Assembly (NCBI RefSeq): GCF_000003815.2
Contig: NC_049983.1
Span: forward strand, 7,954,319-8,018,318
DNA: 64,000 nt
Reading direction: 5' to 3'
Source: Branchiostoma floridae
Taxonomy: Eukaryota > Chordata > Leptocardii > Amphioxiformes > Branchiostomatidae
Made by a program: the position numbers and the translations under genes. Shown one piece after another: positions 4,061 through 64,000 of the stretch. The notes below the pieces were generated by a model, which saw only the letters and a list, made by a program, of their open reading frames with translations, did no database searches and had not been told where the DNA came from. Every line of letters begins with the position of its first letter. Positions within the stretch are counted from its first letter, which is position 1.

Positions 4061-4200
4061 GAGGGTCTGCATAGGGGCGTCTTGGTAATGCTTAACGGTG
4101 AATTCAGGAGGCCCGGTAACGCTTAACGATAAATTCAGGAGGCCCGGTAACGCTTAACGGTAAATTCAGGAGACCCGGTAACACTAACAGTAAATTCAAA
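4061..4200. repeat. GAGGGTCTGCAT element fragment with 31-bp array
   Basis: The sequence opens with GAGGGTCTGCATAGGGG, the same end as the element at 24545-24757. It then runs into about 3.5 tandem units of 31 bp (4090-4120, 4121-4151, 4152-4182, then a partial unit). Each unit contains CTTAACG, AAATTCAGGAG and CCCGGTAAC. No matching right end is visible, so this is a truncated or rearranged copy in which the internal unit has expanded. Confidence 0.65.
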
Positions 4201-4270: not shown

Positions 4271-4417
4271 CATCCTGTCACCTGTTTCTTTGTATTGCTT
4301 ACCTGGTAAACCACCTTGACATCCTGTCACCTGTTTGTTTGTATTGCTTACCTGGTAAACCACCTTGACATCCTGTCACCTGTTTGTTTGTATTGCTTAC
4401 CTGGTAAACCACCTTGA
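4271..4417. repeat. Three 49-bp tandem repeats
   Basis: Three consecutive units of 49 bp (4271-4319, 4320-4368, 4369-4417) are almost identical. The first differs from the others by one base. Each unit begins CATCCTGTCACCTGTTT and ends CACCTTGA. Confidence 0.9.
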
Positions 4418-13667: not shown

Positions 13668-24128
<10,461 letters not shown>

Positions 24129-24131
24129 ATG

Positions 24132-32870: not shown

Positions 32871-34550
32871 GGTACAGTTGACTTTTTTATTTAACCTACA
32901 GCAAGGTAATGTTTTGCAATTATCTTCTGCAGACTCAAAATCTAATGTGAGCATGCGAATAAAAACAAGGTGAGCAAAGAAAACAAGATACCCAGATTTC
33001 CAAATGTAGAGACCAAAAAACTTGAAGCATTTTGGTATCACAAAAACAAGACTTTTTCTATTGCATTCAGTGATCAAGTAAGTGACACTGGTATCAATAT
33101 CAAAATCACCAAACAAAATAAGATTAGTAGGTCTTTGACAAAGAAATCTCTAGGTCCTCTATCCATGTCTGTATCGTGTTGCCAACAAGTAACGTTAGCT
33201 CTAGATCTGATCCAGAAGGTTAAATTCCCTGACTGCCAAGACAAAATACCTTTAAAATGTCCTTTAATGTGTACGTATAAAACAAATGAACAAAAGTCGA
33301 ATGTACATCAGTAAAAAAAAGGAATACGTATGTAGAAGTTATTGGGAGCCGTTATGATAACAATAGTTGTACTGTACATCGCAATGTCTTTTACAGTACA
33401 GTTCAGCGTCGCCTTGCGGACATTGTTATTATTACAACGTACCGTTATGATACCAGGCAAACATATTTTTCTATATCTGTAATTGGTCAATTTGATAATG
33501 TCTTAAGCATGCTCATTGGTAAAGATTTCCAATGGCAGCGTATTAATTTTACACCTACGATACATTTTAGCCTGTATATCAAATGCAACTGTTTGCTATT
33601 GGTTAGCTTTGCCCAATCATATTAACGATAGACTCTACATTAGCCAATCAACAAAGTCTTCTCTTCTGTATGTCAACGATAGATCTGCATTTTTCTTTGT
33701 GATCACTAGGGGTCGCTGTGAGACCGTGTCCGTAAGTATTTGAACTTAAACCGCGTCGTAAAAAAGACTGAGACATGTTGTGGTTTTAATCTTCCAGAAG
33801 TTTACTGATTAAGTTTCACGGTTGATGAATAGCGCGCGAAATCCATTCTATTCTAGCTCTGATCTGCTCCTCTGGTCGCGTATGCCAAATTCGGAGCTAG
33901 ATTTGGATGGGTATCAGGGTTGCGTTAGTTGGGGTGGGATGGTCAACATCAACGACAATGGTAAACCATGTCAGATAGCCGTGTTGACTGTTGCAGGCTT
34001 TTCTTGCTTGAGGTCGCCATAGCGTTTAAAATTATGTGTTTAAAATCATTTCTGCATTCATTCCTTTTCTACCTAAAGCAACTACACCTGTCCTTGGTGC
34101 TGAACAACGGTCCATACATGTAAACAAACTTGTCCCTTGGTGCTGAACACCATGCAACCATACCTATCCTTGGTGCTGAACACCAATACTGTACGTAACA
34201 CAACAAGTAAATACAGCTGTCCCTGTGTAGTCGTACTAGTACTAGTATTTACCATGGCACACCTGAATGACCTGTCCTGCGCGCGCCAAACAGGTGGTGA
34301 ATTAAACTCATTATCGGCTCAGCAAATCAGGAGAGGTATGCAACTGTGCAGGATATGCAAATGATGCAGGGAAAGGGAGTAGCGCGAAGTTGGTATGGGC
34401 GAGATAGCGGTTGGCAGGAAGGACTAGCGCATGTCGCTGGTTCCAAGACAACCACCGCGCAGCGGGTTCAGCAGGTGGTCGGAGGGCCGCAGTTCGCTCA
34501 ACAGACCGCGAACAACAATTTTCCCGAAATCAGTCGAAAACAACGCCCAC
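32871..34550. repeat. Tandem unit, copy C
   Basis: Third unit, about 1976 bp from copy B at the CCAAT anchor and 2100 bp at the octamer. It has lost part of the Gln-codon-rich block and ends in a different sequence near 34530. The first octamer is degenerate (ATGCAACT); the second is intact. Confidence 0.75.
33482..34362 (+). promoter_or_regulatory. CCAAT cluster and single octamer, copy C
   Basis: Most CCAAT motifs are kept (from 33482 to about 33648), though one ATTGG is changed to ATTAG. One octamer remains at 34355-34362. Confidence 0.4.
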
Positions 34551-35126: not shown

Positions 35127-38100
35127 ATGGGGCTGGAAGAATACCAGAAAGTTCAAGTTGTGGGGAAGGGGAGTTATGGAGAGGTGTGGCTGTCCCGACA
35201 CCAAAAAGACAGAAAACAGGTCAGAAAAAGAAGAAGCGTTTTCAAGAAAAATCCAGTTGCTTTTTCTGTTGTTTTTGTGGCAATGACACTACTACGGTTT
35301 CACTGCATTTCATAATGTTTGTGAGGGTTTGAAATTGCAGAAGGCCGCACCAGCTTTTAGTGTCAAGTGCATGTTACGTTAGCAGCTGGCTAAGATCTTG
35401 AACAAACAGTTAACATTACATATTTTTGATTAATAAAGGTTTGACGGTTTATGATAGCTAGGTTAAACGTTTATTACACCCCAATGTGTAACTTGAGAAG
35501 TTACAAATAAAAATAAAAACTTTTATGCTTATTTCTCACTACCTCAAAATCTTGAATATGGAATTAAGGAATGCGTCTTGCAACTTGTTATCAGAGACTA
35601 TCCCAATTAGTTGTCATGGTAACGTCTTGACGCCACCACCTGTAGGCATTTTAAGACATGGATTAAGGATCAAACGTTAAGGTTGTATCTACATGTTCAC
35701 TTATCCAATTTTTTGGGAAGTCCCGCACTTGGTATTAAAAGGTACTCTGAAACTGTTACAGAGTTTAAATGTTAACGTTACACGCCGTGATGCGTTAACC
35801 CTTAAGGCTTAAATGACCTGTAAAATCAGGAAGCTAACCCATCCTTCCATTGAAAATTAAGTCTGAAAAAGTACTATCCAAGCAAATTAGTTGTACGTAG
35901 TTAATCGTTTGCCAGTATCTATTGGAAGTTTGCCCAATTGAGTAAGGCTCTGCAAACGTTAGAGACGTTGGTTATTGTGTTCCTTTCACCATGACAGGAA
36001 CCGTTATACACAAACACACAATCATGGCACCACGTGGACCAAAGTATGTAGTTATGTTGACTTATAACAATTTTGAATGTCAATTCTAGAGATACCAAGT
36101 ATAAGAGGGTCTGCATGGGGGGTCTCCACAACACTTTACGCTGAAGTCAGAAGAAAGAAGAACATCCAACGTACTAGTACTACGCTAAAATCAAGGAAGG
36201 CATTTACGCGAACTTTGGTCACTTTACCATGAATCATATAACATTAAAATATGCTGCCTACGCCTTACAGAAAAGGCCTGCTCTCATATTAGTACGTGTC
36301 GTTTACAATATTTACAGTGTGCACAATGTAAGTTTTAGAAAATGTCAGAACAACCCATATCTGGCAATTAGAGTTCATACACCTGAAAGAAAATAGAATA
36401 TTGTATAATTTCACAAACAGCTATGATAAAATTAAATTATACCAGACTTTGTTACTCAAGTGTCAGGAGTCCGTGACTGTATTTTGAATATTTAATAATG
36501 TATAAGACCTCCAATCATATCTGTTTACTTCCCCTTTTCACTGCATTTGTGATAGAATTGATCTCATCAATAATTTAGACATTTTAGTGGCATCTTATCC
36601 AGCTTCTTTTCTGACTACTTGGCAGTTCTTTTGTGTGTATATCTTTTGGTTGAATTTGATATAATCTAACATTAATCTGAATCTCCTTCAATGAAGTACT
36701 TCCTGTAGAAGGGGAAATGTTCGGGAAAGTTTTTATGTTTCAAATTTTCATAAAATCACAGTTAAAATGTTCATTCTATCACAAAATTAACCCCTGCAAA
36801 CTTTTACAGTAATGATCTGATTTATGAAATTGATATACATTTGTATTATTACTTAGTCGACTTTTGTCTTCAAGTTGTTGTATTGCCATATTGTCAAGAT
36901 TAGTTGTTGAAAAAGAATTTGATTTTATGCATTCAAAGTATTCGGAATTCTAGGGAATTGAAAGAAAGTTGGCTTGAAGATTTAGAATGTTCAGATTCTT
37001 TCAAACATCCTTTTAGTTCTTATCAGCATGTATCACAAGTAGGAAATACAAATGTACAGGAAGTACATGTAGGCACGCTGAAATGTTATGACACAGAAAT
37101 CTTTAGTTTATTGTATTGTATATATGGTATCATTTGTTGCCGCATAGGCAGAAGGTATGAAACATTTGTTAATAAGTACTAGTAACAGCATCCAAAATCT
37201 TCATTGTGCAATGTGATTTACCAACCCTGAGAAACTTTCATGCTAATATAGAATCTTCATCTCTTTCTGTTTTTCAGTATGTACTGAAACGTATGGACTT
37301 ACAGAATGCATCCAAACGTGAGAGGAAGGCAGCAGAACAGGAAGCCAAGCTGCTGTCCAAGCTGCGGCACCCCAACATCGTGAACTACAAGGACTCGTTT
37401 GAGACGGAGGAGGGGATGCTGTACATAGCCATGGGGTTCTGCGAGGGGGGAGACCTGTACACCAGACTCAAGAACCAGAAGGGGGTGCTGTTAGAGGAGG
37501 AACAGGTGGTGGAATGGTTTGTGCAGATCACAATGGCGCTACAGGTTAGTAAACAGGTGTTTTTTGATAACTAGTTATCCTCCTGTGCTAACTAGAACAG
37601 ATTTATTGTATTACTGGTACTGTAAATCTTGAAATGCTTGTGATTTTATTTGCATAAGGCCATGTTGATTTGATTACTTGTATATGGATAATCCGCAAAA
37701 CTGCGAGAATGGGAATATACAAAAGTTTGACCAAATAAAATTTGCCTTCATTATGGGATCTATGTGGTCAGGAAGGTTGAACAAATGACTGTACATAAAG
37801 AATATTGGAATTGGCATTGCCATTCAATGACATTGGTTATATTTCTGGATATTTTTTTTTCATATCTATGGCATCTATTTGCTTATTTCGCAGCTGCTTT
37901 GTACGATTTACAAGATGGTTGATAACTTCTTTTTTTAGGGGTTGGGAAAATGAAGGTCAAGTTTGATAATGGGCCTCCTAGTGGCTTTCAACAGTACTGC
38001 CATGGAAACTGTCTTTATATCTAATTCTTTGTGATAAATACAAATATCTTAAGTAAATCTATTGGTTTCTTTCATCTCCTTACTTTTTCTTCAGTACCTG

Positions 38101-41100
38101 CATGAGAGAAACATCCTCCACCGAGACTTGAAGACCCAGAACATCTTCCTGACCAAGACTAAGATTATAAAGGTCGGTGACCTGGGGATAGCCCGAGTGC
38201 TGGACAGCTCCAGTGACATGGCCACCACTCTCATCGGCACACCTTACTACATGAGTCCTGAACTCTTCTCCAACAAACCTTACAATCACAAGGTGAGAGA
38301 GACATCCTTAAGTTAAATATAGCTAGTAGGAACTAGGAACATTCTTTGCCTATACCTGTTGCCCAGATGAACATGAGAGATTCCTTTATAAAACTTTTTT
38401 TCAGAAAATCAGAAAGTCCATTACTGTTCATAGCATTGTGTGTCCTTCTTTGATACATGTACATAATGTTTTAATGGTGTTTTGTGTTTTTTCCAGTCTG
38501 ACATCTGGGCCCTAGGGTGCTGTGTGTATGAGATGGCCACCCTGAAACATGCCTTCAATGCCAAAGACATGAACTCTCTAGTCTACAAGATCCTCAGGGG
38601 AAAGGTAAGTCTGCTATGTCATTCTCATTAAAATGAATTTTATGAAATGCATACAAACTAATACTATGTAACGATTGGATAACAGTTCCGTAATGTTCAA
38701 ATCCTTATTTATGATGTCATATCCTGTTCTGATCAGTTTACATGATGTCATATCCTGTTTCTTGTCCCCAGATGCCTTCCATGCCCAAGAAGTACAGCAC
38801 TGACCTGTGTGACCTGATTAAGTTGATGCTGGCCCAGGATCCCGAGAAGCGCCCCAGCTCCAAACGTGTCCTGAGGAACCCTTACATCAAGACTCACATC
38901 GCCTTGTTTCTGGAGGGGACCAGGAGACTGTAAGTATCTTTTAAATTAATCAGTCAATGTAAGTGGTAAAAGTTGGGACCATGTTTATAAGTGAAGTTTA
39001 TTATACCTGGTGTGCAAGATACTAGTATTGAATGTGTAGATTGGACTACAGAAGCCTTAGCAGTTGCAAAAATATTCAAGTATTTATACTACCAATGACC
39101 CTGAAATACAACAGTTTCTGAAGAAAATATCCTTTCAGTTCCTGATTAAGCAAGTATTATGATAACCTGCAATGGCATGTGATCACAAAATATGATCATG
39201 TACTGTTTGCTTCTCAAAGGAACATTTTTTGCGAGTTGTAATGCCAGGTTCTAAACCTGATTCAGACCTAAGATCATGTCAGATTGCTTTAAGGTCCAAA
39301 AGCCCCAGCTAATGTCATTGATGACTTTGAGTGCTGACATCTTCTCTTGTGTCCCTGTTCCAGGCAGCGCCCTCGTTCCTCCTCCGGCTCACGTCCTGGG
39401 TCGGGGTCCCGCCAGGCCGTCCCCCCCTCCCCGCAGAAGTCGGACGCTCCAGATGGACAGATGATGGGGTCCATAGCAACGGTATCCAAGGTATGATTGA
39501 GTACAGAAGTTAGCACTGTATTTGAATACAAATTCTTGAAACCAGAGAATTAAATCTTTTTGAATTGCTTCCAAACTCTTAATGGAAAATGGAAAATATA
39601 TATGTATTATAGATTGTCCGGAAAATGGTGAAAACATGTTTCTTTTTGTATCATTACTGGTAAGAGGACAAAATCTTTGGTATGACAGGAATATACAACA
39701 TATTACCTAAAAGTTTGTACTAGAATGTTTGGGAACCGTCCCAACAAGAAGTGTCTGTAACTCATAAATTGCATTTTTGAGTGAACCTCCATCCGTCTTG
39801 TCTTATCTCTTAATCATACCTTGATGTTCCTTTGTTTCACCAGGTGGATTTTGAAGTCCAAGATGTTCCTGATACCCCGGGTGTGGCCGTCAGTCCTGAC
39901 CTGGAGACCATTGAGGAGAAATCCCCTCCTCCGACGGAACAGAATGTCAAACAGGCAGCAAGAAAGGTCCGCCATGCTCTCATTCTGTTGTTGATTGTGC
40001 TGTTACAACCTTTATATGTCTACAGTGTATTTTTACTGTTCTAGCTACTCCCTTGTCAGATGCCGATATTGTAAACCTTTTACTTAGGGATGGGGTTACT
40101 GTTAGCACAGGGGGTTCTAAGGACAGAGTAGATGTGGGATAAACAAAATGTTTTTGAATGGATATTGATTGTTGAGTGTTGTGAACCAGAACTTTGACTT
40201 ATTCTTACACTCTTATATCTGCGTAGTAGATTCTGATGAAGACTTTTGGATAAAAAGGTGGAAATCAGTAACATATTGTTGTGTCCCAACTGCCACCTTT
40301 ATGAAGCCCAATTGACCAAGCAATATAACTAATGCTTGTGTCAGGGAAAGAGAGGCGATAGCATGGCTAGGCTCAATCTAGATAGAAAATTAACTCAGCA
40401 ATAAAAACTGTAACAACAGTGTTTACATTTTGACGCCCCGTTTGAACACCTTCACAAGCATTAGTGATCAGTGCTTAATTGGCCTGAAAGAGGATCACCC
40501 TTCTAGGCTTTTTCCTCCTCCTGCTTGTATGTTTGCTTTCTTTGTCGTTTGTCTGTTTCGTGCAAATAAATAAGCTCAATCTCCTATACATCCCTACAGA
40601 CCCCCCTCCCCACCCCTGGTAGTGAGGAGCCCTCCAAACACAAGCAGAGGAGAAGGAAGAAGAAGGATGCAGACTCTGACTCAGTCAACAGTGTCGACTC
40701 TGTCACATCCGACTCCTCAAGCTCAAGGTCATCTGTGTTCGACAAGGTCAGTTGTTACTGTGTTTCACGTGCACATTTATAATAGGTATTCTTATTTTCT
40801 TGGATAGTGTTTTCTGGTGTATTTCATATCATGACCATTGTTATTGTAATAATTTGGAGTTACTATAAATGTTATTGTGGCAAGTTAATTTCTCACTGAA
40901 AACAATTTGTGTACAAATTTTACTTAATTCCAGTCTTGTTGCCCAGTACATGTCATAATCGTGGCTATCAATCTCTATATATATGGCAAAAAACAAGTGT
41001 CATGGAACATAGCAAATGAAGGCTTTCCCTTTAGTCATACTTTGATTTTTTAGCCCAAGTAAGTGCCAAAGGTTAATTCAGTCCAGTTGTATTTGACATT

Positions 41101-44100: not shown

Positions 44101-45439
44101 CTTCCTTTGTGCACCGTGTCCTTCAAGATGCAGACAGACCTTCAGATCTTCTAGGTATTGACTCAGAATCTGATGTGTACTAAGCATACAGACTTATGAT
44201 CTCCCATCAATAAGAAAAGGCATGGTTGATTTGCACTAGGTCTTGCACAATGAATGTACTTTGCATCCATTTTTTTGTACAGATACTACATATTCTGAAG
44301 AAATAAGTTGCAGTCTTCTGCTCTATCATCTTTGTGTTAGTTGGAAATGAAAACAAGATATGCCTCTACTAGACCTTTTTGTCAAGTTAAAAACAGTTGT
44401 GGAAATTAGTTAAAAATAGGGGTAGTAAGCAGGGGGACTGAGCTTGCCTTGNNNNNNNNNNNNNNNNNNNNNNNNNNNNNNNNNNNNNNNNNNNNNNNNN
44501 NNNNNNNNNNNNNNNNNNNNNNNNNNNNNNNNNNNNNNNNNNNNNNNNNNNCTCCTCTGGAATCGTTCTATTTGGCCTTTTTCTAGACTGGTAGAGCCTA
44601 ATACATGTACCTCTGTACCTCTGTGTCATGGAAGGCAGATTTAGGAAAATTAAAGATTTTATTCTGAACTCCGTATCATTCCATCTCTTTTCAGGGCTTG
44701 AAACCATCAGTGCCTCCGGCAGGCTGATGAACAGAATAGCAGCCCTGAGGAAGGACTGCATCAAGGGGCTGGGCATGGGGGTTCTGAAGAAGGCTTACGA
44801 CATTCTGGACACAGTAGATGGAGACGAGGTGGAGGTAGGAAGCTTTTTCTCTGCTTTCATATACATTTTATACAAGTATGATGAGTCCATACTGTCTGAA
44901 ATACAGGCATTATAAAACTACCAAATCTTTAGCAAGACCAGCATTGACATTCTTAGAAAAGTGACAGAAGTTCACCTCTCATTGAATATCATATGCAAAT
45001 AGCTTTATTTTTGGAGAGTCATATGTACCCAATCTGTACCAGACCACAGCTGTAATCACATTATATCGGTGATATCAAAGGTGTGTGACATGTGAACAGT
45101 TGATAACTTAGTACTGAATAGGAGGGTCTTTTGCAGTAGCAAGGAAATCCACCAGGAGGCCCAAAATTGACATTGACCTTCGTCTTCCAAACATTTTTCT
45201 TCATGCCAAATATCATTACAACTCATTCATACACATGTAGCTTATGCATGCCAGTATGTAGAATAATAAGACAAATGCCCTCCTCAAACAATACCCCTTT
45301 CACAAATGTAATGATTTACTCTTGATTTGTTTTCCAGCCCCAGCTGGTTGAACTGCTGGGTAAGGAGAAGTTTGACATGTATGCTGGGAAGGTTTGGCAG
45401 CTCAAGTTCTGTGAGGACTCCATGATGGGACTGCTGTAG
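35127..45439 (+). CDS. NEK4: NIMA-related serine/threonine kinase 4
   Basis: Fifteen exons join in phase to 710 residues (human about 841): 35127-35219, 37278-37544, 38095-38292, 38497-38604, 38772-38929, 39364-39490, 39844-39966, 40600-40746, 41800-41967, 42274-42346, 42519-42714, 43405-43577, 44095-44154, 44695-44834 and 45338-45439. The kinase domain spans about 6-265: glycine loop GKGSYG (13-18), VLK Lys35, HRDLKTQN with Asp131, DLG Asp149, and [17 protein letters not shown], which is diagnostic for NEK4. All catalytic residues are present. The tail is Ser/Pro/Arg-rich with basic runs (KQRRRKKK), then acidic, then a conserved helical C-terminus ending MMGLL. Vertebrate NEK4 acts at cilia and in the DNA-damage response. 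Exon 11 uses the acceptor that keeps the frame. The next-to-last intron but one contains a 100-base gap. Confidence 0.92.
36100..36290. mobile_element. GAGGGTCTGCATG-family miniature element
   Basis: This copy in NEK4 intron 1 starts TATAAGAGGGTCTGCATGGG and ends near GGCCTGCTCTCATATT, a damaged version of the terminal repeat. Internal TTTACGCTGAAGTCAGAAG and AAATCAAGGAAGGCATTTACG blocks match the copies at 24545 and 24812. Confidence 0.75.
37650..37935. repeat. Dispersed repeat shared with the RUVBL1 intron element
   Basis: Blocks AAGGCCATGTTGATT, TGTGGTCAGGAAGGTTGAACAAATGAC and CAGCTGCTTTGTACGATTTA (each longer block seen only in part) occur in the same order at about 16905-17285 inside the long inverted-repeat element. 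It lies in NEK4 intron 2 and has no coding capacity. Confidence 0.55.
41362..41695. mobile_element. hAT-like miniature element
   Basis: A 334-bp element in NEK4 intron 8 has inverted ends CAGGGCTCCAAATAC and GTATTTCGAGCCCTG, which pair at 14 of 15 positions. The flanks share GTGTAT(C/T)G, a possible 8-bp target duplication. CAGGG-type ends and 8-bp duplications are typical of hAT elements. Inside are many TACCTGCA/TGCAGGTA motifs and no open frame. Confidence 0.7.
44452..44551. other. Assembly gap (100 N)
   Basis: A run of exactly 100 N inside NEK4 intron 13, so a small additional exon could be hidden here. The flanking exons still join in phase. Confidence 0.99.
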
Positions 45440-49670: not shown

Positions 49671-50706
49671 GTTGGTGTTCTCCTAGCTCCTCCCCCTGTA
49701 TTCATTGCTCTCTATGAAAAAGTAGTTGTCCAGTTTTCTTTGACTATGAAAGGATTGTATCAGCTTTAATGCATAATTGATGATCTGTGTATTAAGAGGT
49801 AGAGCCTTCCTTTTGTGCATACCTAGACCACGAAAGAATAGATGTCTGAGTTACCGTTACATGTACAATTCTTACAGTATCCTTTAAGTACTATCTTTCT
49901 TCTTGAAGAATGGATTCAGCGTCTACTTAACGGGTGTTCACAGTAGACAAGAGTGTTTTTCTCCTCTGGTTGTTTTGGAGGAGCGACAGTGAATGTTTGC
50001 GGTGATATGCACAGGTGAATTGATACACAATGGTAAACAGCATGGACGCTTTGCTTCACCTTACCCACCATTGTCGGGACAGGTATCTGTTACGTAGTAA
50101 CCAATGCCACTGTAGAATGCACACAGGCCACGCTACTGGCTAGTTGTCTTTGCTGATGCCAAAGTTGACCCTATCCCCACGTAATTAGTATGATAACCCA
50201 CTATAATGCACTTAACCTTCCTGTGATAACAGGACTTAAATGCCTGCTCGGTGAGCCCCTACTTTCAGCTACTTACTGCATAATGGTGGCATCGTTCAAA
50301 CTCAAAACATAACGCTGGCCTTAAAAGAAAGAGGCGGGGTCTTGGTCTTTGAAACTGAGTCGGTAAAGAAAACCTGGGGCATCTGGCATTCAGCCCACCC
50401 TCCTAGAGTTTCCCCCTCCCATAGACAGGGCTCGTAACCGAAGCTCTATGTTACCAACGAAGCCCCCTAATTGGTTTAAGTGTCCCAGGCGGGGGTAGCG
50501 TTTCGCGGGGTCTTTTCTACGGGGTGTTAGGAATTTCCTTTGGCTTAGCGTCGCGAGAGCCTTTCTGCGACTGCTCATGCAGAACGTACGTAAACAGTGC
50601 TGCGCCACGGCTCAAGCGTGAGACCTAACGGTGCTGTCAAAAGGACAGGTGGAATTTTTTTTATATCGTGGTGAACGTGCAGCTTTTGTCTCTTCTTTGT
50701 GTTCAG

Positions 50707-50759
50707 GGAGTGCTAAGAAGAACAAGGTGCAGGCATTTAGTAGAAGCTGCCCAAGCAAG
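50707..50759 (+). other. Candidate 5' untranslated exon of the second NEK gene
   Basis: A strong pyrimidine tract with TTCAG acceptor before 50707 and an AAG/GTATGT donor after 50759 define a 53-bp internal exon. No frame through it reaches the ATG at 53506 without a stop or a frame change, so it would be untranslated. Confidence 0.35.
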
Positions 50760-52647
50760 GTATGTCATTCCCTTTGATGCTGTATCCAGGTGTACTACTC
50801 ACCTGACCTTACAATAGATGGATAAGGTAGCCATTTTGAAACAGTGTTCTCAGTCCGAAAGGATGATAAAGTCTGAGTAGTAAAACTGAATCCATGTTGT
50901 TGGTATTCAGTGTTGTTTTTACCCTGGCAGTGATTGAAGTACAAGGACGCCTAGCAATGGCACCTGTTTGTGTAGCTGGGGGAGAGGGGGACGCCATTTA
51001 TTTGAACTTGATAGTCGTCCTGAACATTGCAAATGTTAGTTTTCGATAATAACTTTTCTCTGATTTACCCCATTCCTGTTGTGTGTGTAGCGTGCTATCT
51101 ATATTTGCTCTGTGTACATGGCAGAGCTACTGTTAAAAGTGACGTTTGTTTTTTGCATGCATTGTTTTGACATGCAGCCTGGCTGTTGTCAATGGAGTAA
51201 CCGAACGTAGGCACCGGCATAAGACAGAGCACATATATTCAGCAGAGGGAATGTTAATTCTTTAGTAGAAGGTTGGAAAAACAACCACCTGTTTTCCGTA
51301 GCATGTGACACTTCTGAACCCGACATGCCAGGCTTTTGTGTGACAAGTGAAAGCAGCCTTTGGATTAGCCTGGCGTTTGTTGCTCTTAGCCGCTGTCACT
51401 GTTGATTTTTGCCCCATCTGTGTCACTGCACCTCAACGACATGTGTCACATACCTCGTTTGTTGTAGAGCACGAGTGACGTGATGGGCAGTCTGAGTGAT
51501 TGTGCTATCTTTTGGGATTGACACACACAGGTGTTTTTGTCGGATTTAATACCACTGTCTTTATGTAGAGCGATTGATCGTAAATAGGCCATTGTGTTTT
51601 CAAAACCTCCTGGGGATTCAAATCCGATATAAGTACAGTTTGCAATTAATAATGTATTGGGATTGTCAATTCTGCTTCTTGGAATTCCTTTACATCAAGG
51701 GGAGACCTTATTGAAGAACCGTCCGTCCTTGGCTGTGCAGGTGCAGTACTGTTCACATTTGTCCATTGTTCATGTGTGTGTCTAACGATATTGTTCTCAT
51801 ATGTCGCTATTGTGTTCTTTTTTAATGTAGTTTTCGTTAACAACAGGATAATCAGAGCATCTTGTAGGGTCAAATGTTAGTTGAAACAAAAAGGGGTCAT
51901 ACATTTGGACAGCATGTGAAAGAAGTTGCAAAAAAAACTGGATATATTGTTTCTTAGCTTTTGTATGAAAGCTGCAAATGTTTCATATTCCCATGATTTA
52001 CTGTTACAGTAAAAGTTTTTTGTAGAGAAATTGTATTTGATTTTGTTGGGAGCTAATTGCTGCCAACAGACTACCTACTACACAACATAATCGTTTGGAC
52101 TTCAGGATAACTCAATTTTGAGTAACTGAATTTCTAGCATACCAGCAAACAATGGGTGATACAATACCTGGGATTTGGCAAATTAAGGTCAGTGTTTTTG
52201 GTTCCCATGTCAACTTGTTGTCTCAAAGGCTGCTGACATGTCAGAACCTTGTTGTGTTTCATGCCGGTGTATAATGTCATTTTTCAATCAGAAAGCACTT
52301 TTGATTTTGATTGACTAGCTACGGTGTGATGTGCAGGAATGCTTGCTGTGTACCAAACAGGGCAGTTGCAACTTGAAGCTGAATATAGCTTTCCAAGAAG
52401 AGTTTGTTACATTTTATGAGATTGATCATGAGGAAAGATACAAGGGAAAGGAACGTTATAAATGTTCCTCAAATTTCTTTCAAAGTTGAACTAGACTAGG
52501 TAACTGTGGCTGAAGTATCTGAAAGCAACATTTCTAACCATAGACAGTTGTACTATTAATGCAGAGAATCTTTTTTTTTAAATTGCTTGCCAAAAAACCC
52601 TTCTTGAAAGCTTTCTTTGTTGTAATGTTTTGATGAGGTTAGACAGG

Positions 52648-53016
52648 CTAGTCTGAGATACAAGCAAACATTGTCCCAATCTTTGACAGAACTTGATAGT
52701 GATATTTTACCATGATTATCATCATGTTAGAAATCTGAGGCTCTCTGAGCACAGAATGGACAATGTTTCTGACACTACTATTCACATGTCTTTCTTGTAC
52801 TGATACATCCCATCCAACATGTATACACTGCTGAAGAATGTCCACTCTTTGTAAGGGCCCATCTGCGCTGACCCACTCCAGGCATATCATAAGCAATGGA
52901 TCAGCTTTCACTTTGTTTACTCTTAGAGCATCACTGATGCACCTGTCGGATAGTGTAGCCAAACTGTTTGCACAGCGTTGAGGTAGACTTGCAACCAGGT
53001 ATTTGCATGCGACCAT
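52648..53016 (-). pseudogene. Possible BACK-domain (BTB-kelch type) remnant
   Basis: A 122-codon minus-strand open frame contains a run resembling a BACK domain: ALRVNKVKADPLLMICLEWV, then SADGPLQRVDILQQCIHVGW. The BACK consensus has a similar pattern of 'E/D...l..a.l.Wv..d...R...l..ll..v'. No BTB or kelch repeats are present in the same frame. A neighbouring upstream frame reads VVLIQADDKLLTMRKA, loosely like part of a BTB domain. It may be a decayed copy of a host KLHL-type gene, or chance. No start, splice site or full-length frame supports a live gene. Confidence 0.25.
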
Positions 53017-53402
53017 AAGCCGTGTAATAGCAAGACAGTAGTGTTTGGGGATATGCTTTGCGCATCGTCAACAACTTGTCATCTGCTTGGATCAGGACGA
53101 CTGAAGAGTCAATTTGCGCAACAGATTATCCTGTCTTTGGAACAGACATGTCTACTGTAATGTGGTCATCACCTTACAACTTAAAGGTGATCATGTGGCC
53201 AAAAGAGGAAGATGCTTATTGTAGGCTTTAAAGAATAGGTTCAAAGTCATTGGGAAATTCAGAGGCCCTCACAGTTTCTGATGTCTGTATCAAATGCTGT
53301 ATCAGTTACTAGTAAAATGACTTTTCGTTCATGTGTTAACAAAGGAAAAAGGGAACAGGACTAATGCAATAACACCATACTTGGAACACATTCATGAAAG
53401 TT

Positions 53403-53417
53403 GGGGGGGGGGGGGGG
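53403..53417 (+). repeat. Run of 15 G
   Basis: An uninterrupted G tract about 90 bp upstream of the first coding exon of the second NEK gene. A similar run of 14 G lies at 63669-63682. Confidence 0.95.
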
Positions 53418-53505
53418 TAAAAGAATTTCTGTGAACTTGTTTGCTGTTGTCACCGCATCATTTTTGTTAACACCGTATGTCTCTCTTCCATTTTAGGCAT
53501 AGACC

Positions 53506-56500
53506 ATGGCAATGGCAGGGATGAATCCTGGCCATATGGCAGGGAACCAGCCATGGAACCAGGCACCCTCTGGGCCATGGGGGACTGTCACACTCAGCAT
53601 TGACAATGCTTTCATGCCGACAGGGACAACAATAGGTAAGAGCTATACAAATGAAGTACATAATTATATATAATGTTAGGCCACACCAATTTAATTTGTT
53701 GGCTCTCGGATTTCCCGACCCATTTTTTTCTGATTTGGAAAAAAAAAATTTAGTCCCAAGAAAAATAATATACAAAACTGTAGGTTTTGCTATTGCAGAC
53801 CTTTAAAAAACCCCATTCCAGGGGCACATACTGCTGATAAACCAATCTGCTTATTTGCAGTCACATGATCAGAACAGAGATTCATTGGATAAATCATGCC
53901 ATGAAAGCTGACTACTTTTTTTGTGTTATATAAGTTCACCACAGACTTTTTGCAATTTTTTTTTTTTTCCGACCGACCGCCCCAATATTTTTCTGAAAAA
54001 ATCCGAGAACCAAGAAATTAAATTGGTGTGGCCTTAACTACCAGTATATCAATTGTCACCAGAGGTTACAGTGTTTGCCAAGTCATATCAAAGAAGTGGT
54101 ACATGCTGGTTTCTCTGCTTAGCACTCAGCATTTGGGAAAGAGTATGGTAGTATAAGACACAGATCACTACCAGTGGAGTAAAGCTCCCTGCTGTACTGA
54201 TGGAACAAATCTGTGCGGCCCAAGGCTACAGAAATGGAGATTGGCACTGCCCTATGTCCCATTCGGTTTGGGAAGGACCAGTATATCATAATACTGTAAA
54301 TGCAGAAATGTTCGCGGTGGATTAATGTTCGCGGTTTTCGCGGTGACCACTTCACCGCGAACTTAAAACCACCGCGAACATTTTTCTATTATGGTATTAG
54401 ACTGCAGTCTATGGTGTTACCGCAAAATTAAAACCACAGCAAAAAGTTCTTTTTCCCGCTACTGCGAAATTAGATCCCCGCAAACTTAAATGCATTTACA
54501 GTAACTAATAGACAGCTTTGTACTAATTCAAAAGTGGTGCCATGTAAGTGCAAACAAGATTTCAGGGGTATCATTATTGTCACACATACTAGTACATGTA
54601 ACGCTAGTTTACCTTTATTCAAAGGGTAACCTATATCCGTTAAAACGGGGTATTTAGGGATATCACATTGATGAACGATGGTTCTAAATTGCATTTGTTT
54701 CAATATAATGCAGTTTGAGACCACCGTCCGTCGACTTGATATCCCGAAATACCCTGATGCTAAGTACAACGAATAAAGGTTACCCTGTGAATAAAGGTGA
54801 ACTTGCATTAAGTGTACTAGTGTAGGATGTTCAATGAGTGGGGTCGTATATTAAGCTATAGATTCTTCCAGGATCTAAGTGAGCTAAAATGCAAAGTGCT
54901 ACAGTGTTCTCTTTTATAGTGCTGTGACTGCCAAAACTGGCTGTGACATGACATTCTATACCACTTTTATTGTATGTCTCCCTTATTTACAAATTTGTAT
55001 CCTACCTGGGCCATAATAACATTTTGATATGGGTATTCTGGACCAGGTGATATTTTGGATATCACACGGGCTTCTACTTGTGTCACATGGGCTTCCATAG
55101 AAGGATTTTAATGCACTTTGCATGCACCGAGTGCACTACATTCAAAAATTCAAACACTGGGTTCGGACAGCATTGATGTCGTTACAACTTTTTGTTTGAA
55201 AAGAATTTCCTCAAGTTCTAGGCCAGGCGTATTTTACATTGGAATGTGACACTGTTTTGAATTCACAGGTGGGTTAAAGACATAGACACCTCAGATTATG
55301 TTGAAATTACCGTGTTGTATTCTGTATCTATTAGATGACAGCTGACACATTTGTCTTATAAATCTCATTGTATTTGACTCATGCATGAATATTTCAATAA
55401 ATCTTGGATGGCAGATTCTTGAAAAATCAATGCCTGTCTCAAAGCTTCTTATGGTTTGAAATGACAAAGACAAAATCTTCTTTTCTCCAGCACAATTCTA
55501 TGCATCCAACCCGATGAACAAGGCCCTGACCAGGGCGGCGGTGAGGACCGTTATCGAGAGACAGGTGTCCGGCGGGAGGAACCCAGAGGTGGCGAGCATC
55601 ACTGTCGGTGGGAAGGTACTTGTGGAGGTGCTGTTCAAGACAGAGGAAGGGTGGAAGTACTTCAAAAGGATTCAGGACAGTGGACGTCTGCGGCTGGGGC
55701 TGGAGGATGAACTGAGAAAAGTAAGAAAGAGCCTTACATGTAGCTGATAACAAAAAATGACAATCATTTATCAAGAAAACTGATTGTTAGGCATAGATAC
55801 TGCTACTGTAGAATCATTTACTAATACATCCAGGTAGTTGTATTTTGCAGTTGGAGGGAAAACAAGGTTTAGATTTAGCTGTTGAAACAATTTTGTTGCA
55901 TTGCAGATAAACTTCCCAGGGACTAAACCATACCCGGGCTCCCCACAAGCCGCGTCTGCCTCCAAGTACAAGCGGTACCCTGGCATCTCCATCCACTTTG
56001 AGCCACTCCAGCATACAGGTCTGTTTTACATGTATCTGTGAGGAAACTCAAAGCCGCTGTCTGTAAAAACTGGGTATTAAGGGATATCAAGTCAACAGAC
56101 AGAGTTTTTAAATTGGAATATTTTCAATACACTGCAACTATTTTCAAAATATTGCACCATTCATTGATCTGATATCCCTATATACCGATCATAAAAACAA
56201 TGGATATATGTTACCCTATGAATAAAGGTGAACTAACATTAGACACAACTTAATCATAAAAGCCAAAGATGAAGAAGAAGAGGGAATTTCAAGATGACTG
56301 CCATGTGGGAAACTCAATGAACTGACAAATATGAGTTTGAGTTTATTTATATCTTTAGGCTACTATAATCATGCTATACATGTACGAATTATGTCAGTTT
56401 ATAGGGTAATGTTAAGTTGTGTTTGTTTGTTTGTTTCAGCAGCAGCCGCCTCACCATTGCCACAGTTGTCCCTCACACCCCCCACCCCAGCAACTGCCCC

Positions 56501-59500
56501 TGCCCAGCCTGCCTATCCCAGCGTCCCTTTCTCCAGCTACGGCAGCATGCCATCCCTGCAGCACGGCAGTTCCCCCCCTCACCACTCCAGCTTCCTCCCC
56601 ACCCAGCCCTCAGTAGACAGCCGACGCTCATCCGTGGATACTCTTCCCTTTGCAATCTCGTCCGCAAAAAGTTCCCCTCCCGAAGACTCCGCCCAGCGAA
56701 CCTCTCTATCTTCCCACGACTCGCTACGATCATCGAGCCTGTCTCCCTTCATTATGGCTGGGTCTCCTCCTGGTTCACTACATTCAGGCATGACCTCTAT
56801 GAGGTCAACGACAGGTTCCTACTCACCAACAAAGAGCTCGGAGTTCGGCTCCTCTCTGCACTCGACGTCTCCCTTTGTGGGGTCTGCTCCACACGGGAGC
56901 TCCCAGTTTGGTGGAACAGCCAGCTCAGGGCTGTTGGCCATCAGTAGGTCTCCCCCCTCTGATCACGGATCCCTCCAGCTGCCTTACTCTGCCTCTCCAC
57001 TCATGGGCTCCTCCAGGAGGACATCTATAGACAGTGGTAAGTCTTATTCCAAAGAGCCCAGAAAACTTACTAGTTTCTTTACTATGAAAGCATTAATTCA
57101 TTTATCCATCGTAAGATTGACACACCATTACTAATTGCCTCTCATATTTTCTCTGCTTTCAGTGAGTTTGCTTCAGCAATCAACAGGACTACCTATGTCC
57201 TCATTGCAGGTAAGATCTTTTTGGCGATACCTCGGGTATGGAGCCTTTTTTCTCTTTTTTTCTGTGTCTGACTGAAGGTCTTTTCAATGTCGTACTCGGT
57301 GGATTAGCTCTCTTACATCACATATCCTTTAGATGTTTTAGGTGTAGAAAGAGAAAAAAAGAGTCTTTAGTTTATAAGCATGTTGCATGTTTGTATGACT
57401 AATGTTATGCTCTGTACACTGTTCTTTCTCACTCAGAGCCCACCACGCACCCTACCATGGCAGAAGGTCTGTCTAGATCTCAAACACATGTCACTTTTGC
57501 ATGACGTCTCGTGGGCAAATGCCAGACTTTTGTTCATCTTTGAGGTTTAGTTTTCTCACTGTAAAGCCAAACCTTGAAAATGAACAATGATCTGCTGTAG
57601 TTTGCCTTTGGTAATTTTGGAATTACTTTTTGGATGATCATGATTGTAATGCATGCAACTGAGAATCAATCCTTGTGATCAGTTCTTTCCTTGTTTTTAT
57701 GTTATGTGAAGGAGGCCTTTTCTCCTTCTTAGTACATACTTTTGGGAACATCCATTCTAATGATGGAATTAGGCAGTGGGGTTTTTAACCTTCAACTTGC
57801 TATGGTAGCCATTTGGCACCAAATTTACATTGATTATGGGGTTGGTCAGCATGAAAATGGTTCAGCAATTGTATAATCATTATAATGCAATTTCATACAT
57901 TACATGTAATGACTGGCCAGAATGTCACTTGCATAGAGCAATATCTTAGCGGTGCAGCTTGCTTACTACATGTACAGTACTTGGAATATCATGTACGTAC
58001 TCATTAAAAATAACACAGTTGTACAATTATAGTCTGCTCCCAAATTCATGACAGGTAATGATGAATGTGAGATTTATGGCCAGAATTGTCAATATATCAC
58101 AAGGACAGTAAAATGTAATCTTACTGTTTCTTATGTTGTTTCCCCCCAGCCTGAAGAGGAGGTAGCAGGGTACATCCTGATCAGGACCCTGGGGAGCGGC
58201 AGTTTTGGGGAGGTGTGGCTGGGGAGGAACAGGAAGGACTGGAAACAGGTGGGGAGCAGCTATTTCACATAGGATTGCTCCCAAGAGCATTGTTTTTACC
58301 TTGAACCAAGAAGATTATGTTTTCATTGACATTTGTGGACTTGGGTGCAAAGTGAATTCAGCACCAAGGACAGGTACAACAGAAATCATGAATCAATACT
58401 AATTATCTTCATAGGGTTGACTCAGATGGATAATGGCATTCCAAACATTGCCATTGGGTTGTGTGCTATCTGTCCAATGGGTATAGCAACTAGAAAGCCA
58501 TGTACATCTAAAAACAGACAACTGAAGGACTTAATTTCTTTAGCTTATTTAATATACATAAGTTTCTAATAAGAGTCTACCTTACTCTACAACAAGTCAC
58601 TATGTATTTCATTCATTTTGAATGTGTGCCATGGACCACTTATAAAGCTTAGTCCTAGTTGACCTCAATTTTGAGAGATAAATCCTGGTGTTTACAAGTA
58701 ACTTCAATTGTACCTGTCCTTGGTGCTGAAATTCCTTTATATATATATATATACATATATAGTCAGTGAGCTGCCATTCCTATGCATTTGATAAAGAATA
58801 TACATGTAAAATGTACTACAATTCCATGATCCCACAGTACGCCATGAAGCGGGTCTCAATGGTGGAACGTTCAGAAGATGAGCGAGAAGCAGCCCTGCGG
58901 GAATCAGAGGTGCTGCGAGACCTGAAACATCCCAACCTGGTGGGGTACAAGGAAGCCTTTGAACAGGTGTGTTACTATACTAATCCCTCTTGTAAGAAGA
59001 TAACATTAACTGTTATTGAAATTTAAGGGGAGTCAATTCTATAGGAGTATGGTTTAGACCTAATTTGCTCTAGAAATGATTCATTGTACGGCAATATGAT
59101 AGTTATTTGCTCCTTTTTCATGATTGGGAAAGACATTCTATTTACAGTAATTATGGCCTTACCTTTAATGAAATGTCATTACTGTCTGCAGTGTACCAGG
59201 AGGTTTGTGCTTGGTCATGAAATGCACTGCCAGCTGTTACTTCTAGCCTGCTCCTTCTAATCTTTTCCATCAAAATAACTCCTATGAGATAATGTCTCAG
59301 GGTATTGTCTTATCACATTTTGCAAATAAAGAAAATGCATTTTGAGAGGAATGCACCAATTCAACGCACAGAGATCAAGAGAGACAGAGAAAAAGAGAGA
59401 GAGAAAGAGTAATACTGCTTGGTGATCATATTCATGTTGATTGATGTAACTTATGATAAATAAACAATAATGGTACAATGATGTCAACTCTCCCCCTCCC

Positions 59501-62500
59501 AGTTTGGATACCTGTACATCGTGATGAACTACTGTGACGGAGGTGACCTGTTCACCAGGCTGAAGGGACAGAGCGGGCGGCCCCTGGAGGAGCCCGTGCT
59601 GGTCGAGTGGTTTGTGCAGATCGCCATGGCGATACAGGTATGACTTTGGAACTCATAACTGAGCAACAATAAATGATACTATGACATGTAGGATTGTTAC
59701 GATGCTATTTCATGGGACCTGTCCTCGGTGCTGAAGTTATTAAGTACAAAATGTATGGTTGAGTGGTTTGTGCAGATTGCCATGGTGATGCAGCTATGAC
59801 TTTGACTCATGACTGACCAAAAAGTAACAATAGCTTGATAAACTATTGGGATAACTACAGTGCAATCCTTTCGTACCTGTCCTTGGTGCTGAATGGGGGA
59901 TGTTCCTGATATGCATAGCAGCTGTAGTCATATATCTTTCCAGGATGGTTGGTAGTTGCAGTATCAATTCATGTCAAGGCATTCTCATAGGATATGTTGA
60001 CTTGAAATTTCATCCATGTTGGTAAACGTCATCCTGAGTTAGAGTTCAACTGTAAATTTCACCCCCCCCCCAAAAAAAAGGACTTTCCCAAAATTGACCA
60101 ACTGAAGTTTTTGTCAAAGAATGATCATTCCACTGCTTCTGTTATATAACACCTGACTTGGCGACTAGTAGATTATAAGTTGCAGAATGTCTATGGCGCC
60201 CCCCTCCCCCCACCATTTCTATTGAAGGATGGTTGTATTAGGATTTGTTGTAATACTCTGTGACTTGTACCCTGGGCCCTTCTCTTCTAACAGTTTCTCA
60301 GTTTGGTTTCCGAGATTGATCATCCTAGAATACTATTTTTTTTTCATTGCAGTACCTTCATAATCACAACATCATCCACCGTAACCTGACCACTCGTAAC
60401 ATCTTCCTGACGCTGCGGTACCGGCTGCTGAAGGTAGGGGACATCGGGCTGCCGGCGGTGGTGGACGGAACCCGCTCCATGGCGGAGAAGCAGAAAGCCA
60501 TGGGCATGCCGTGCTACATGAGCCCTGAGTCACTGGCAGGGCGACGACACAGCAACGAGGTGAATACACAGTTTTACACTTTTACAGTGTCTGTTGTTGC
60601 ATAGTCTGAGCAAACACGGGATAAAAGAAGCTAAACAAAGATCCAAAGTTAAATTCTGCCCAATCATCAGTTTTCCTCTTTCTGTCAATGATGAACTTTA
60701 CAAAATTTATTACATCTGCAATGTGTATAATGCAACAAGTTGTTGAATTAATATTGGTCATTTTAAATTTGGATGCATGTTTTTTTACAGTAGCATCCCT
60801 AGGGTTTGGAGTTTGGGTTGAGAAATTCACCCTGTCTGTTTTTCAATTTTACTATGTGGGGCAACTGCAAAAGATATTGGGATGCTCAAAAAAGACTGCG
60901 GACTGCTTATTTTTCTACTGTCTGCAATTTTCATCAATGATGCCTTAAATTGTGAACATTGTAAAATAATGATTGTCATATCACTGTACTCAATACATCA
61001 AGAGCTATCCACTGATATCTCACTTAAAGGTAGAACATCAATTTTGCTCAAATTTCCAAATGGCTTGTATCTTTCCTTAATTGAAGTGACCAGTGTTAAT
61101 TAGTGTCAACTTAGCTACCCGAGTATTTCCTTCTTGTGGTCTGTGTGAACATGCAAATTCAATCCTCTCTGTAGAATGTGCTTTAGAATCATCTGTCTAT
61201 GTTAATGTCAGTCACGTTGATTTTGTTACTAGTCGGATGTGTGGGCCCTGGGTTGCTGCCTGTATGAGATGGCCTCTCTGAAGCACGCCTTCCCCTTCTA
61301 TGACAAGGACATCAACAACCTGGCCCTCAAGATTGTCAAAGGAAAGGTTGGTAACACTCCTTCTATAATAAGAATTCTGACATTGTGATTTCATTGGCAA
61401 CAATTTCTTGGATCATCATTTTTTAGTGCAGTATACTAGATTGAAAGTGCAATTTTGACCCCTCAATTTATTGTTGAAAAAATATATTGATATGTAGAGA
61501 CAACTTGAACATTGGACTTTCAATCAATATGGTGTTTGAATCTTAAGCACAATGCTGTAAGCCAACTACTTTTTGATAGAGTGATTTACTCTCAGACTGA
61601 TATTGTTGTTGCATATTTTCTACTGTTAATCATTGATAATAACACAATGAATGAATGAAGACCTTTATTGTACATACATTGTATATACTCACTGGGTTCA
61701 GTACTAGTAGTAGTAGTAGTAGTAGCAGTTGTCCACTGTGTTCTGCCATTGCAGTGGTCTGGATACTCTGCATCAGCATTCAGTCTTTCTTCAGTACTGA
61801 TCACAACAAAATGATAGCTGACAAATACATGGCATATTTACAATGTCAACCAACACAAGGATCAAATTCTTCCAGTATACTAAGGGAATTCGACTTCTCA
61901 CTTCTTTGTGATATTTGATCAACATGATCTTTGTTGTATAGTCTACATTCTACTATAAAATGCTGTTCATTTTCTAACATAATGTATGTTCTATCGTGTC
62001 AGATGGGTCCGCTGTACAACAGTTACAGCCGTGACCTTGTGGACCTGATCAAGGACATGCTGCAGATAGAGCCCGACCAGCGCCCGACCGTACGCACCAT
62101 CCTCCGCACCAAGTTCATCAAGAAACATGTGTCCAAGTTCCTGGAGGAATCTATCAGAGAGTGAGTCTTAGTAGAGATACCAAAAGTCATATCTTAGATT
62201 TTATCTAAGAACTTAGAGAAAACAATAAATGTAATGATTTAGTCAATGAAATGATGTTTAACTCAAGGCATCCGAATTTGATCTTAAAGACATTGGCATT
62301 GAGGTCTTTACGTCTATTAGTAAGAACATTTCCAAGATGAATATTTTAACAGGTTGTTGAGTTAAATCACTGGCAGCTACAATATAATGTGTCTGCTCAA
62401 ACTAACTAATCAACTAACTAACAATTGTGTTGTTTGTCTCCCTCCAAGCTCCTACGGAATGAGGTGCGATGTGTGAGTAACTAACCCGTCCCTGTCTCCC

Positions 62501-63618
62501 GTGTGCCCTTCCATCTTTCCCTTCCTAATGTCACGTATTCCCTTTTAACCTGAACATCACTCCATAGCTTATTTCTTGCACTTAAAAAGCTTAAATCCTC
62601 CATAATAGTTATTTTGTTAATGCATGATTGCTTTTTCACAGAATTTAGACATCAAAATCAACATTATATTGTGCACATTGTTGGCGAAAATACATGCACA
62701 ACAACTGAAAAGCAACTGTGCAAGGAATTTAATTCTTAAGTAGAAATATAACGCTATACATTGTCTAAGTATTGTTTACTCTGATACCTAATCACTAACT
62801 CCTTCTTAGTTAGATATGTTATCAATAGAAAAAACTCATCATTGAACTCGTCATTATCTGCAGTCGATTCCCCACCTCCCCTGCCTGGGATGAGTACAAC
62901 CAGTACCGCTTCCCCTCCCCTCCCTCCTCCCCCACCCCTGGGGACAGTGAGCAGTCCCAAGAGGAGGACACTCCAAAGAAGAGGGTGGTCACCGGACCGC
63001 TGGTAGATATGGAAGTCAAAACTAAGGAGACAGCTAAGGTAATATGATAATTATGAATTGTGACTATATATTTCATATATCACTATACTTTCATTAATTT
63101 ATGCAAATTGGGCCATGACTTGCATCATAAGCATTATGATAAAAATAATTAGATCATCATTTAATCTATTTATATGAAAAAAAACATGATATGTCAACAC
63201 ATTCTTGAGTTGTTAATTCAGTTCTAGTTATTCTCTTTCAAAATAGGAAACAAAACTGGCCCCTGCAGTTCTAAGAAAGTTGCTAGAGGGCCCAAACCTA
63301 GTAGTATTCCCTGTCTGAAGAACTACTGCTCAAACATGATATGTCATGAAAGGCTCTTTGACAGGACATGAAACAGAAAAAAATATCATTAAAGTAAGAA
63401 GTAAACCCTGTGTTTTTCCTTTCTAGGCTAAACCATTTGGTGCGCCTGTACGTGTGCCTCCCTCATCAGATCCAGTGGAGATCCCCAGGAAACGAGCCCG
63501 AGAAGAACCTCCTGAGGAGACCATCGATGATGATGATGATGATATCGACAACATCAGTCAGACCAGCTCAGAGGTGGAACTGATGAGGCTGACGGAGGAG
63601 TTCCTTAAAGAAGCTGAG
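53506..63618 (+). CDS. NEK-family pseudokinase with unassigned N-terminal region (partial)
   Basis: Fourteen exons join in phase to 785 residues and the gene runs off the right edge: 53506-53635, 55491-55720, 55907-56018, 56440-57036, 57163-57209, 57437-57466, 58150-58248, 58838-58966, 59503-59637, 60353-60559, 61233-61346, 62003-62160, 62864-63038, 63427-63618. Residues 1-158 form a compact Met/Gly-led region with a [20 protein letters not shown] core that I cannot assign. About 160-380 is Ser/Pro-rich. The kinase domain (about 390-650) keeps the glycine loop GSGSFG (397-402), Lys419 (YAMK), Asn519 and Asp533 (GDIG). However, HRD reads HRN (Asn514), the next Lys is Thr, and GTPYY is GMPCY. 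It therefore probably binds nucleotide but is a weak or dead kinase. The tail has a basic run (PRKRAREE) and an acidic run. It lies in tandem with NEK4. The 30-bp exon at 57437 is tentative. Confidence 0.82.
53679..54033. mobile_element. Intact GGCCACACC miniature element
   Basis: Perfect 19-bp inverted repeats, GGCCACACCAATTTAATTT (53679-53697) and its complement (54015-54033), bound 355 bp in intron 1 of the second NEK gene. Both sides carry TTA, a 3-bp target duplication of the kind PIF/Harbinger elements make. The inside is poly-A/T rich with TCTCGGAT and ATCCGAGAA blocks. There is no coding sequence. Confidence 0.85.
54292..54503. mobile_element. TACTGTAAATGCA miniature element with TTCGCGG core
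   Basis: A 212-bp element is bounded by 13-bp perfect inverted repeats TACTGTAAATGCA (54292-54304) and TGCATTTACAGTA (54491-54503). It contains GTTCGCGGTGG, GTTTTCGCGGTGACC, CACTTCACCGCGAACTT and CCACCGCGAACATTT, which also pair with one another. Decayed relatives lie near 3040-3235 and 3975-4050. Confidence 0.85.
54606..54812. mobile_element. Palindromic TTTACCTTTATTCA element
   Basis: The first and last ~36 bp are inverted repeats (AGTTTACCTTTATTCAAAGG on the left, ATAAAGGTGAACT on the right). Inner GGGTATTTAGGGATATCA and GATATCCCGAAATACCC blocks also pair, so almost the whole 207 bp can fold on itself. A related, more diverged copy lies at 56057-56234. Confidence 0.8.
56057..56234. mobile_element. 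Related palindromic element, diverged
   Basis: This copy in intron 3 of the second NEK gene has GGGTATTAAGGGATATCAAG, GATATCCCTATATACC and TGAATAAAGGTGAACT in the order seen at 54606-54812. Its left end is truncated. Confidence 0.6.
58738..58762. repeat. (TA)n tract
   Basis: An interrupted TA dinucleotide repeat in an intron of the second NEK gene. Confidence 0.9.
61705..61727. repeat. (AGT)n tract
   Basis: About seven AGT/TAG units in an intron of the second NEK gene. Confidence 0.9.
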
Positions 63619-63668
63619 GTTAGACATTGTTCTTTCTATTTCAAGACTCCATTGTTCAGTGTGTGTGT

Positions 63669-63682
63669 GGGGGGGGGGGGGG
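63669..63682 (+). repeat. Run of 14 G after (GT)n
   Basis: A G tract following GTGTGTGTG, about 50 bp after the donor of the last exon seen in the window. Confidence 0.95.
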
Positions 63683-63894
63683 TGCAATAACCATGTGCAC
63701 AGTGTTCTATGGACAGATTTCATATGTAAACTTTTGCAAATATATTGCACATTAGTCCTAGTATGGTGATGCACTCAATGCAAAACTACTGGTTGGGAGC
63801 TGAGTCAGCAAATTGCAGATTACCCCTTTCTGAGAGTGAGTCCTATAATAGAACGGTCAAACAAATTCAAAGTCACAATGATAGCTTTAAATTG

Positions 63895-63985
63895 GGGATG
63901 TCCTTGTGGTTCAACTTGTAGCAGCCTCACAGTTGAGCTCCTGGTTTCAATTACTTGGTAACTGGGAGTTCAAGTCATTACCAAA
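63895..63985 (+). repeat. Possible tRNA-derived SINE head
   Basis: GTGGTTCAACTTGTAGCA resembles a tRNA A box and GGGAGTTCAAGTC a B box, about 55 bp apart. No clean cloverleaf forms, so this is not a functional tRNA gene. A tRNA-derived SINE running off the window edge is possible. Confidence 0.3.
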
Positions 63986-64000
63986 TGGGGTCATGACATG

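Follow-up and report, generated by a model that had tools for sequence, protein, structure and literature searches.

A likely maintained NEK4-group pseudokinase gene downstream of an intact paralogue in Branchiostoma floridae

The window, which denotes the whole stretch of DNA analysed here, consists of 64,000 nucleotides of Branchiostoma floridae contig NC_049983.1 (forward-strand positions 7,954,319 to 8,018,318) and contains two NEK-type kinase genes on the same strand. The upstream one, gene A, is a canonical NEK4-type paralogue with the motifs HRDLKTQN and GTPYY. The following exons of its kinase domain were found.

35127..35219, + strand: first coding exon found of gene A; putative start ATG at 35127; glycine loop GKGSYG
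37278..37544, + strand: gene A kinase exon 2
38095..38292, + strand: gene A kinase exon 3, with HRDLKTQN and GTPYY
38497..38604, + strand: gene A kinase exon 4
38772..38929, + strand: gene A kinase exon 5, of the same length (158 nt) as exon 12 of gene B; GT at 38930-38931

The putative C-terminal exons of gene A reach a stop at about 45439, some 8 kb before the ATG of gene B; the kinase exons of the two genes are about 19 kb apart. Two runs of exactly 100 N, presumably assembly gaps, are located at 24988-25087 and 44452-44551, the latter within gene A.

Gene B, the subject of this analysis, was joined by hand from 14 exons and extends on the forward strand from 53506 to at least 63618.

53506..53635, + strand: gene B exon 1; putative start ATG at 53506, beginning of the N-terminal region; GT donor, phase consistent
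55491..55720, + strand: gene B exon 2; portion of the N-terminal region
55907..56018, + strand: gene B exon 3
56440..57036, + strand: gene B exon 4; Ser/Pro-rich linker
57163..57209, + strand: gene B exon 5
57437..57466, + strand: gene B exon 6; 30 nt, and the frame closes without it too
58150..58248, + strand: gene B exon 7; encodes the glycine loop GSGSFG of the kinase
58838..58966, + strand: gene B exon 8; contains the VAIK-type Lys (58847-58849) and the alphaC Glu (58901-58903)
59503..59637, + strand: gene B exon 9; together with exon 8 the counterpart of a single gene A exon
60353..60559, + strand: gene B exon 10; HRN catalytic loop, DIG, GMPCY
61233..61346, + strand: gene B exon 11; SDVWALG
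62003..62160, + strand: gene B exon 12; end of the kinase domain
62864..63038, + strand: gene B exon 13; tail
63427..63618, + strand: gene B exon 14; acidic part of the tail, open to the end of the exon

All 13 introns are GT-AG and the phases chain. The joined frame has no stop in 785 codons over the 14 exons (the two remaining forward frames have 31 apiece), which agrees with the first-pass annotation of the gene as maintained and not decaying. GC content is 0.57 in the coding sequence (GC3 0.67) and 0.36 in the introns. Exon 6 may be skipped or not real. Since no stop is reached in exon 14, gene B probably continues beyond the window. The kinase domain is found at the putative start in gene A, whereas in gene B (exons 7-12) it is preceded by about 380 residues, encoded by the 1146 nt of exons 1-6. 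The first-pass annotation mentions neither these residues nor gene A. This N-terminal region had no matches in Pfam, the PDB sequences or NCBIfam, the last being a prokaryotic library, and neither it nor the tail had homology to the rest of the window at E 1. An AlphaFold single-sequence model of the N-terminal region (53506-56018) had a mean pLDDT of 52.6, and this low-confidence model hints at a helix-strand-strand-helix-helix arrangement over residues 51-119. For the kinase domain, AlphaFold with a two-row alignment gave a mean pLDDT of 46.7, too low to interpret. In a scan of viral contigs, one of seven pattern stretches of the N-terminal region passed (L001, 25% identity, with an E value relative to the candidates only) and was taken as a chance match, while none of ten passed for the kinase stretch.

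A direct repeat of two to three copies, about 1.8-2.1 kb apart, occupies 29722-34376, shortly before gene A, with families D1-D5 at 60-96% identity. The 18-mer CCTGTCCTTGGTGCTGAA occurs 11 times at up to 3 mismatches, compared to 0.06 expected (30057-34180 and 58357-59893); seven copies are in this repeat region and four in gene B introns, of which one is on the minus strand.

The kinase domain of gene B was assigned to the NEK family in the first-pass annotation, and database comparison is consistent with this. The Pfam Pkinase profile matches gene B with 197.9 bits (cut-off 31.7; 2.6e-58) over profile positions 2-263 of 263, and gene A with 230.4 bits. Among the best 60 of 2738 matches to PDB sequences, the closest solved structure is NEK1 (4apc_A, 5.6e-71), followed by NEK2 and NEK7; 15 of the top 16 are named NEK1, NEK2 or NEK7, the remaining one is 6npy_B, a record that combines PKR with a kinase of truncated name, and MARK2 comes next. 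In a tree with provisional NEK4 and NEK3 sequences, not drawn from a database record, gene B clusters with gene A and human NEK4 (support 100). With the same provisional sequences, the two tested placements of B outside the A-NEK4 group were rejected (AU p 0.0068 and 0.0067). All three orders in which A, B and human NEK4 could have diverged were compatible with the data, with AU p values of 0.68 for A with NEK4, 0.47 for A with B, and 0.15 for B with NEK4. The branch of B has a length of 0.82 versus 0.20 for A.

The two kinase domains are identical at 140 of 273 aligned residues and have four intron positions in common, corresponding to the gene B joins 7/8, 9/10, 10/11 and 11/12; their last kinase exons each measure 158 nt. 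These common positions suggest that the genes arose by duplication at the DNA level rather than through a retrocopy. Gene B has one extra intron (58967-59502) inside a single exon of A.

The distinguishing feature of gene B is in exon 10 (207 nt, phase 0 to 0, with an AG acceptor and a GT donor). In the following, kinase residues are numbered from Pro1 of the exon at 58150-58248. The codon AAC at 60383-60385 on the forward strand encodes Asn132 where the catalytic Asp of HRD is expected, so that the motif reads HRN, exactly to the base as first described. Three further substitutions in that description also agree with the codons, namely Thr134 in place of the HRDxK Lys (ACC, 60389-60391), and, as GTPYY becomes GMPCY, Met173 in place of the P+1 Thr (ATG, 60506-60508) and Cys175 in place of the first Tyr (TGC, 60512-60514). 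The activation segment thus ends in GMPCYMSPE, compared to GTPYYMSPE in gene A. The DFG-type motif is DIG (context KVGDIGL) in gene B and DLG in gene A, and the Ala-Arg that follows this motif is gone in gene B. Three positions before the Gly of GTP, gene B has Lys169, while A and NEK2 2w5a have Thr; the aligned constructs of NEK1 (4apc) and NEK2 (2jav) have Ala there. Retained in gene B are the three glycines of the glycine loop, Lys37, Glu55, His130, Arg131, Asn137, Asp151, Gly153, Glu180, Asp192 and Arg255. The ATP-binding Lys, the loop Asn and the DFG-type Asp, which had been reported as kept together with the glycine loop, are thus all present (Lys37, Asn137, Asp151).

According to passages of PMC4718504, a pseudokinase is defined as a kinase homologue without at least one of the VAIK Lys, the HRD Asp and the DFG Asp. 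By this bioinformatic definition gene B is a pseudokinase, having the VAIK Lys and the DFG Asp and not the HRD Asp. Among the residues by which active kinases are recognised, the HRD Asp is missing from gene B, as are the HRDxK Lys and the P+1 Thr. The initial description of the gene as a likely pseudokinase is borne out at the level of sequence, where substitutions affect the catalytic Asp and the HRDxK Lys as well as the Thr residues of the P+1 position and the activation loop.

Gene B has evolved faster than gene A. With NEK1 as outgroup there are 40 private changes in B and 20 in A (p = 0.0098), and with NEK2 as outgroup 29 and 12, respectively (p = 0.0079). Gene B differs at 19 of the 83 sites that are invariant in A, NEK1 and NEK2, and gene A at 6 of the 70 that are invariant in B, NEK1 and NEK2. 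Changes of B at invariant sites amount to 12 of 27 in residues 125-190 versus 7 of the 56 sites outside this region (p = 0.0019, one-sided Fisher test); the region, from the catalytic loop to just past the activation segment, was chosen post hoc after viewing the alignment.

Another reading takes HRN for a sequencing error, a rare allele, or a codon restored by A-to-I RNA editing. A single G-to-A change suffices to turn HRD into HRN, and an edited AAC would be read as GAC and encode Asp. However, a one-base sequencing slip is inadequate as an explanation because 19 of 83 invariant sites differ in B, several of them within the same functional site. As for editing, no extended inverted copy that could pair with exon 10 as a duplex was found within 50001-64000 (the best was 15 nt, E = 0.53), and two local RNA folds at the AAC codon had only short, interrupted helices. 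We consider error, allele or editing the least probable of the readings discussed here, with a very slight chance of being correct.

The faster evolution of B than of A would also be in keeping with a decaying pseudogene that is open by chance. When the kinase codons of gene A were evolved neutrally in simulation to half the A-B divergence, 5 of 2000 runs were free of stops, with a mean of 5.5 stops. Neutral sequences thus rarely stay open even over the kinase codons, while gene B is open over all of its 14 exons, has intact splice sites and phases, and still matches gene A at about half of its kinase residues, all of which makes the pseudogene highly unlikely. Differences between A and B at codon positions 1, 2 and 3 number 102, 77 and 133 of 273, the second position being the lowest, and 25 of 54 fourfold sites differ. 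Pairwise dN/dS values for the two kinase domains were 0.42/1.13 (NG86) and 0.41/0.83 (LWL85), with a saturated dS of 28.7 by maximum likelihood. We did not use these values as evidence, since the synonymous estimates are near saturation and depend on the method (0.83 to 28.7).

The closest parallels for the catalytic-loop change come from the tyrosine-kinase group. As described in passages of PMC4718504, Asn replaces the catalytic Asp in HER3 (ERBB3) and in JAK2 JH2, and nucleotide is still bound; HER3 binds ATP with a Kd of about 1 uM and autophosphorylates weakly. Like gene B, both have the nucleotide-contacting Lys, the loop Asn and Asp184. Unlike HER3, which in that account is without the alphaC Glu, gene B retains it, and the tyrosine-kinase group is not the group of gene B. 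The kept residues, together with the analogy to HER3 and JAK2 JH2, make it probable that the product of gene B binds nucleotide, as the first-pass annotation proposed. The same source states that the catalytic-loop Lys (Lys168 in PKA) helps place the gamma phosphate. Because the set of residues that holds nucleotide is kept in gene B and the set for transfer, including the equivalent of Lys168, is lost, the product would be expected to bind ATP but to transfer phosphate scarcely, if at all.

HRN alone is no proof of inactivity, because HER3, with the same Asn, autophosphorylates weakly, and does so on vesicles (PMC4718504, in part). Gene B could accordingly encode an atypical yet active kinase with weak or specialised phosphotransfer, a reading with which the glycine loop, the VAIK-type Lys, the alphaC Glu, the loop Asn and the DFG-type Asp, all present in B, are consistent. 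But B has lost more than HRN implies, since the Lys of HRDxK and the Thr residues at P+1 and in the activation loop are missing as well, and we regard an active kinase as unlikely.

Within the NEK family, pseudokinases are already known in Giardia: in Giardia lamblia WB, 139 of 195 Neks are without a key catalytic residue according to the available portions of PMC3218828 (also PMC5716973). Gene B resembles these in being a NEK-family member that misses key catalytic residues. The Giardia Neks, however, form a big and very divergent expansion, whereas gene B is one duplicate still near NEK4. It has the kinase domain and intron positions in common with gene A and clusters with it and the provisional human NEK4 sequence, but the catalytic Asp of gene A, its HRDxK Lys and its P+1 and activation-loop Thr residues are missing from gene B. 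No NEK4-type animal pseudokinase is described in the titles and abstract openings listed from the open-access literature (25 of 82 entries for one query). TbNRP1 was rejected as a NEK comparison, as it has HRN but is related to NAK kinases and not to NEK in the part of PMC9633767 available.

We therefore consider it likely that gene B is a maintained pseudokinase derived from a duplication within the NEK4 group, located about 8 kb downstream of the intact gene A, and probably acting as a nucleotide-binding scaffold or partner. Its product would fold as a kinase and bind nucleotide, perhaps with one cation as in HER3. Phosphorylation of the activation loop at its customary site would not switch it on, and its phosphate transfer would be poor or absent. 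It could then serve as a non-catalytic scaffold, or as an allosteric or competing partner, for kinase A or the partners of A, while its N-terminal region may recruit other proteins.

The model we propose for such a role is by analogy. Passages of PMC10958382 report that the pseudokinase ULK4 binds its kinase paralogue STK36 in ciliogenesis, and that NEK4 is linked to cilium stability and, hypothetically, to a scaffold with RPGRIP1 and RPGRIP1L. Because an intact paralogue lies close by, the likeliest use of B would be as a partner or scaffold on the ULK4-STK36 model, and that role would most likely be tied to A or the partners of A. The ULK4-STK36 pair belongs to a different kinase family. More tentatively, and with considerable doubt on our part, A and B may form a linked kinase-pseudokinase pair in which B, through its N-terminal region and locked-off fold, allosterically controls or localises A. 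Such a pair would parallel ULK4-STK36 or HER3-EGFR within the NEK family, with the genes kept linked. Two neighbouring copies in one genome, one intact and the other apparently dead, invite a natural comparison of what a NEK kinase can do without catalysis.

Elsewhere in the window, an exon of RuvB-like 1 was identified at 15551-15775 on the minus strand (4.4e-36 to 6k0r_A). Minisatellites are found at 4084-4198 (units of 31 nt) and 4271-4420 (units of 49 nt). Exons at 24057-27876 on the plus strand, near RuvB-like 1, resemble what we take to be the selenocysteine elongation factor EEFSEC.
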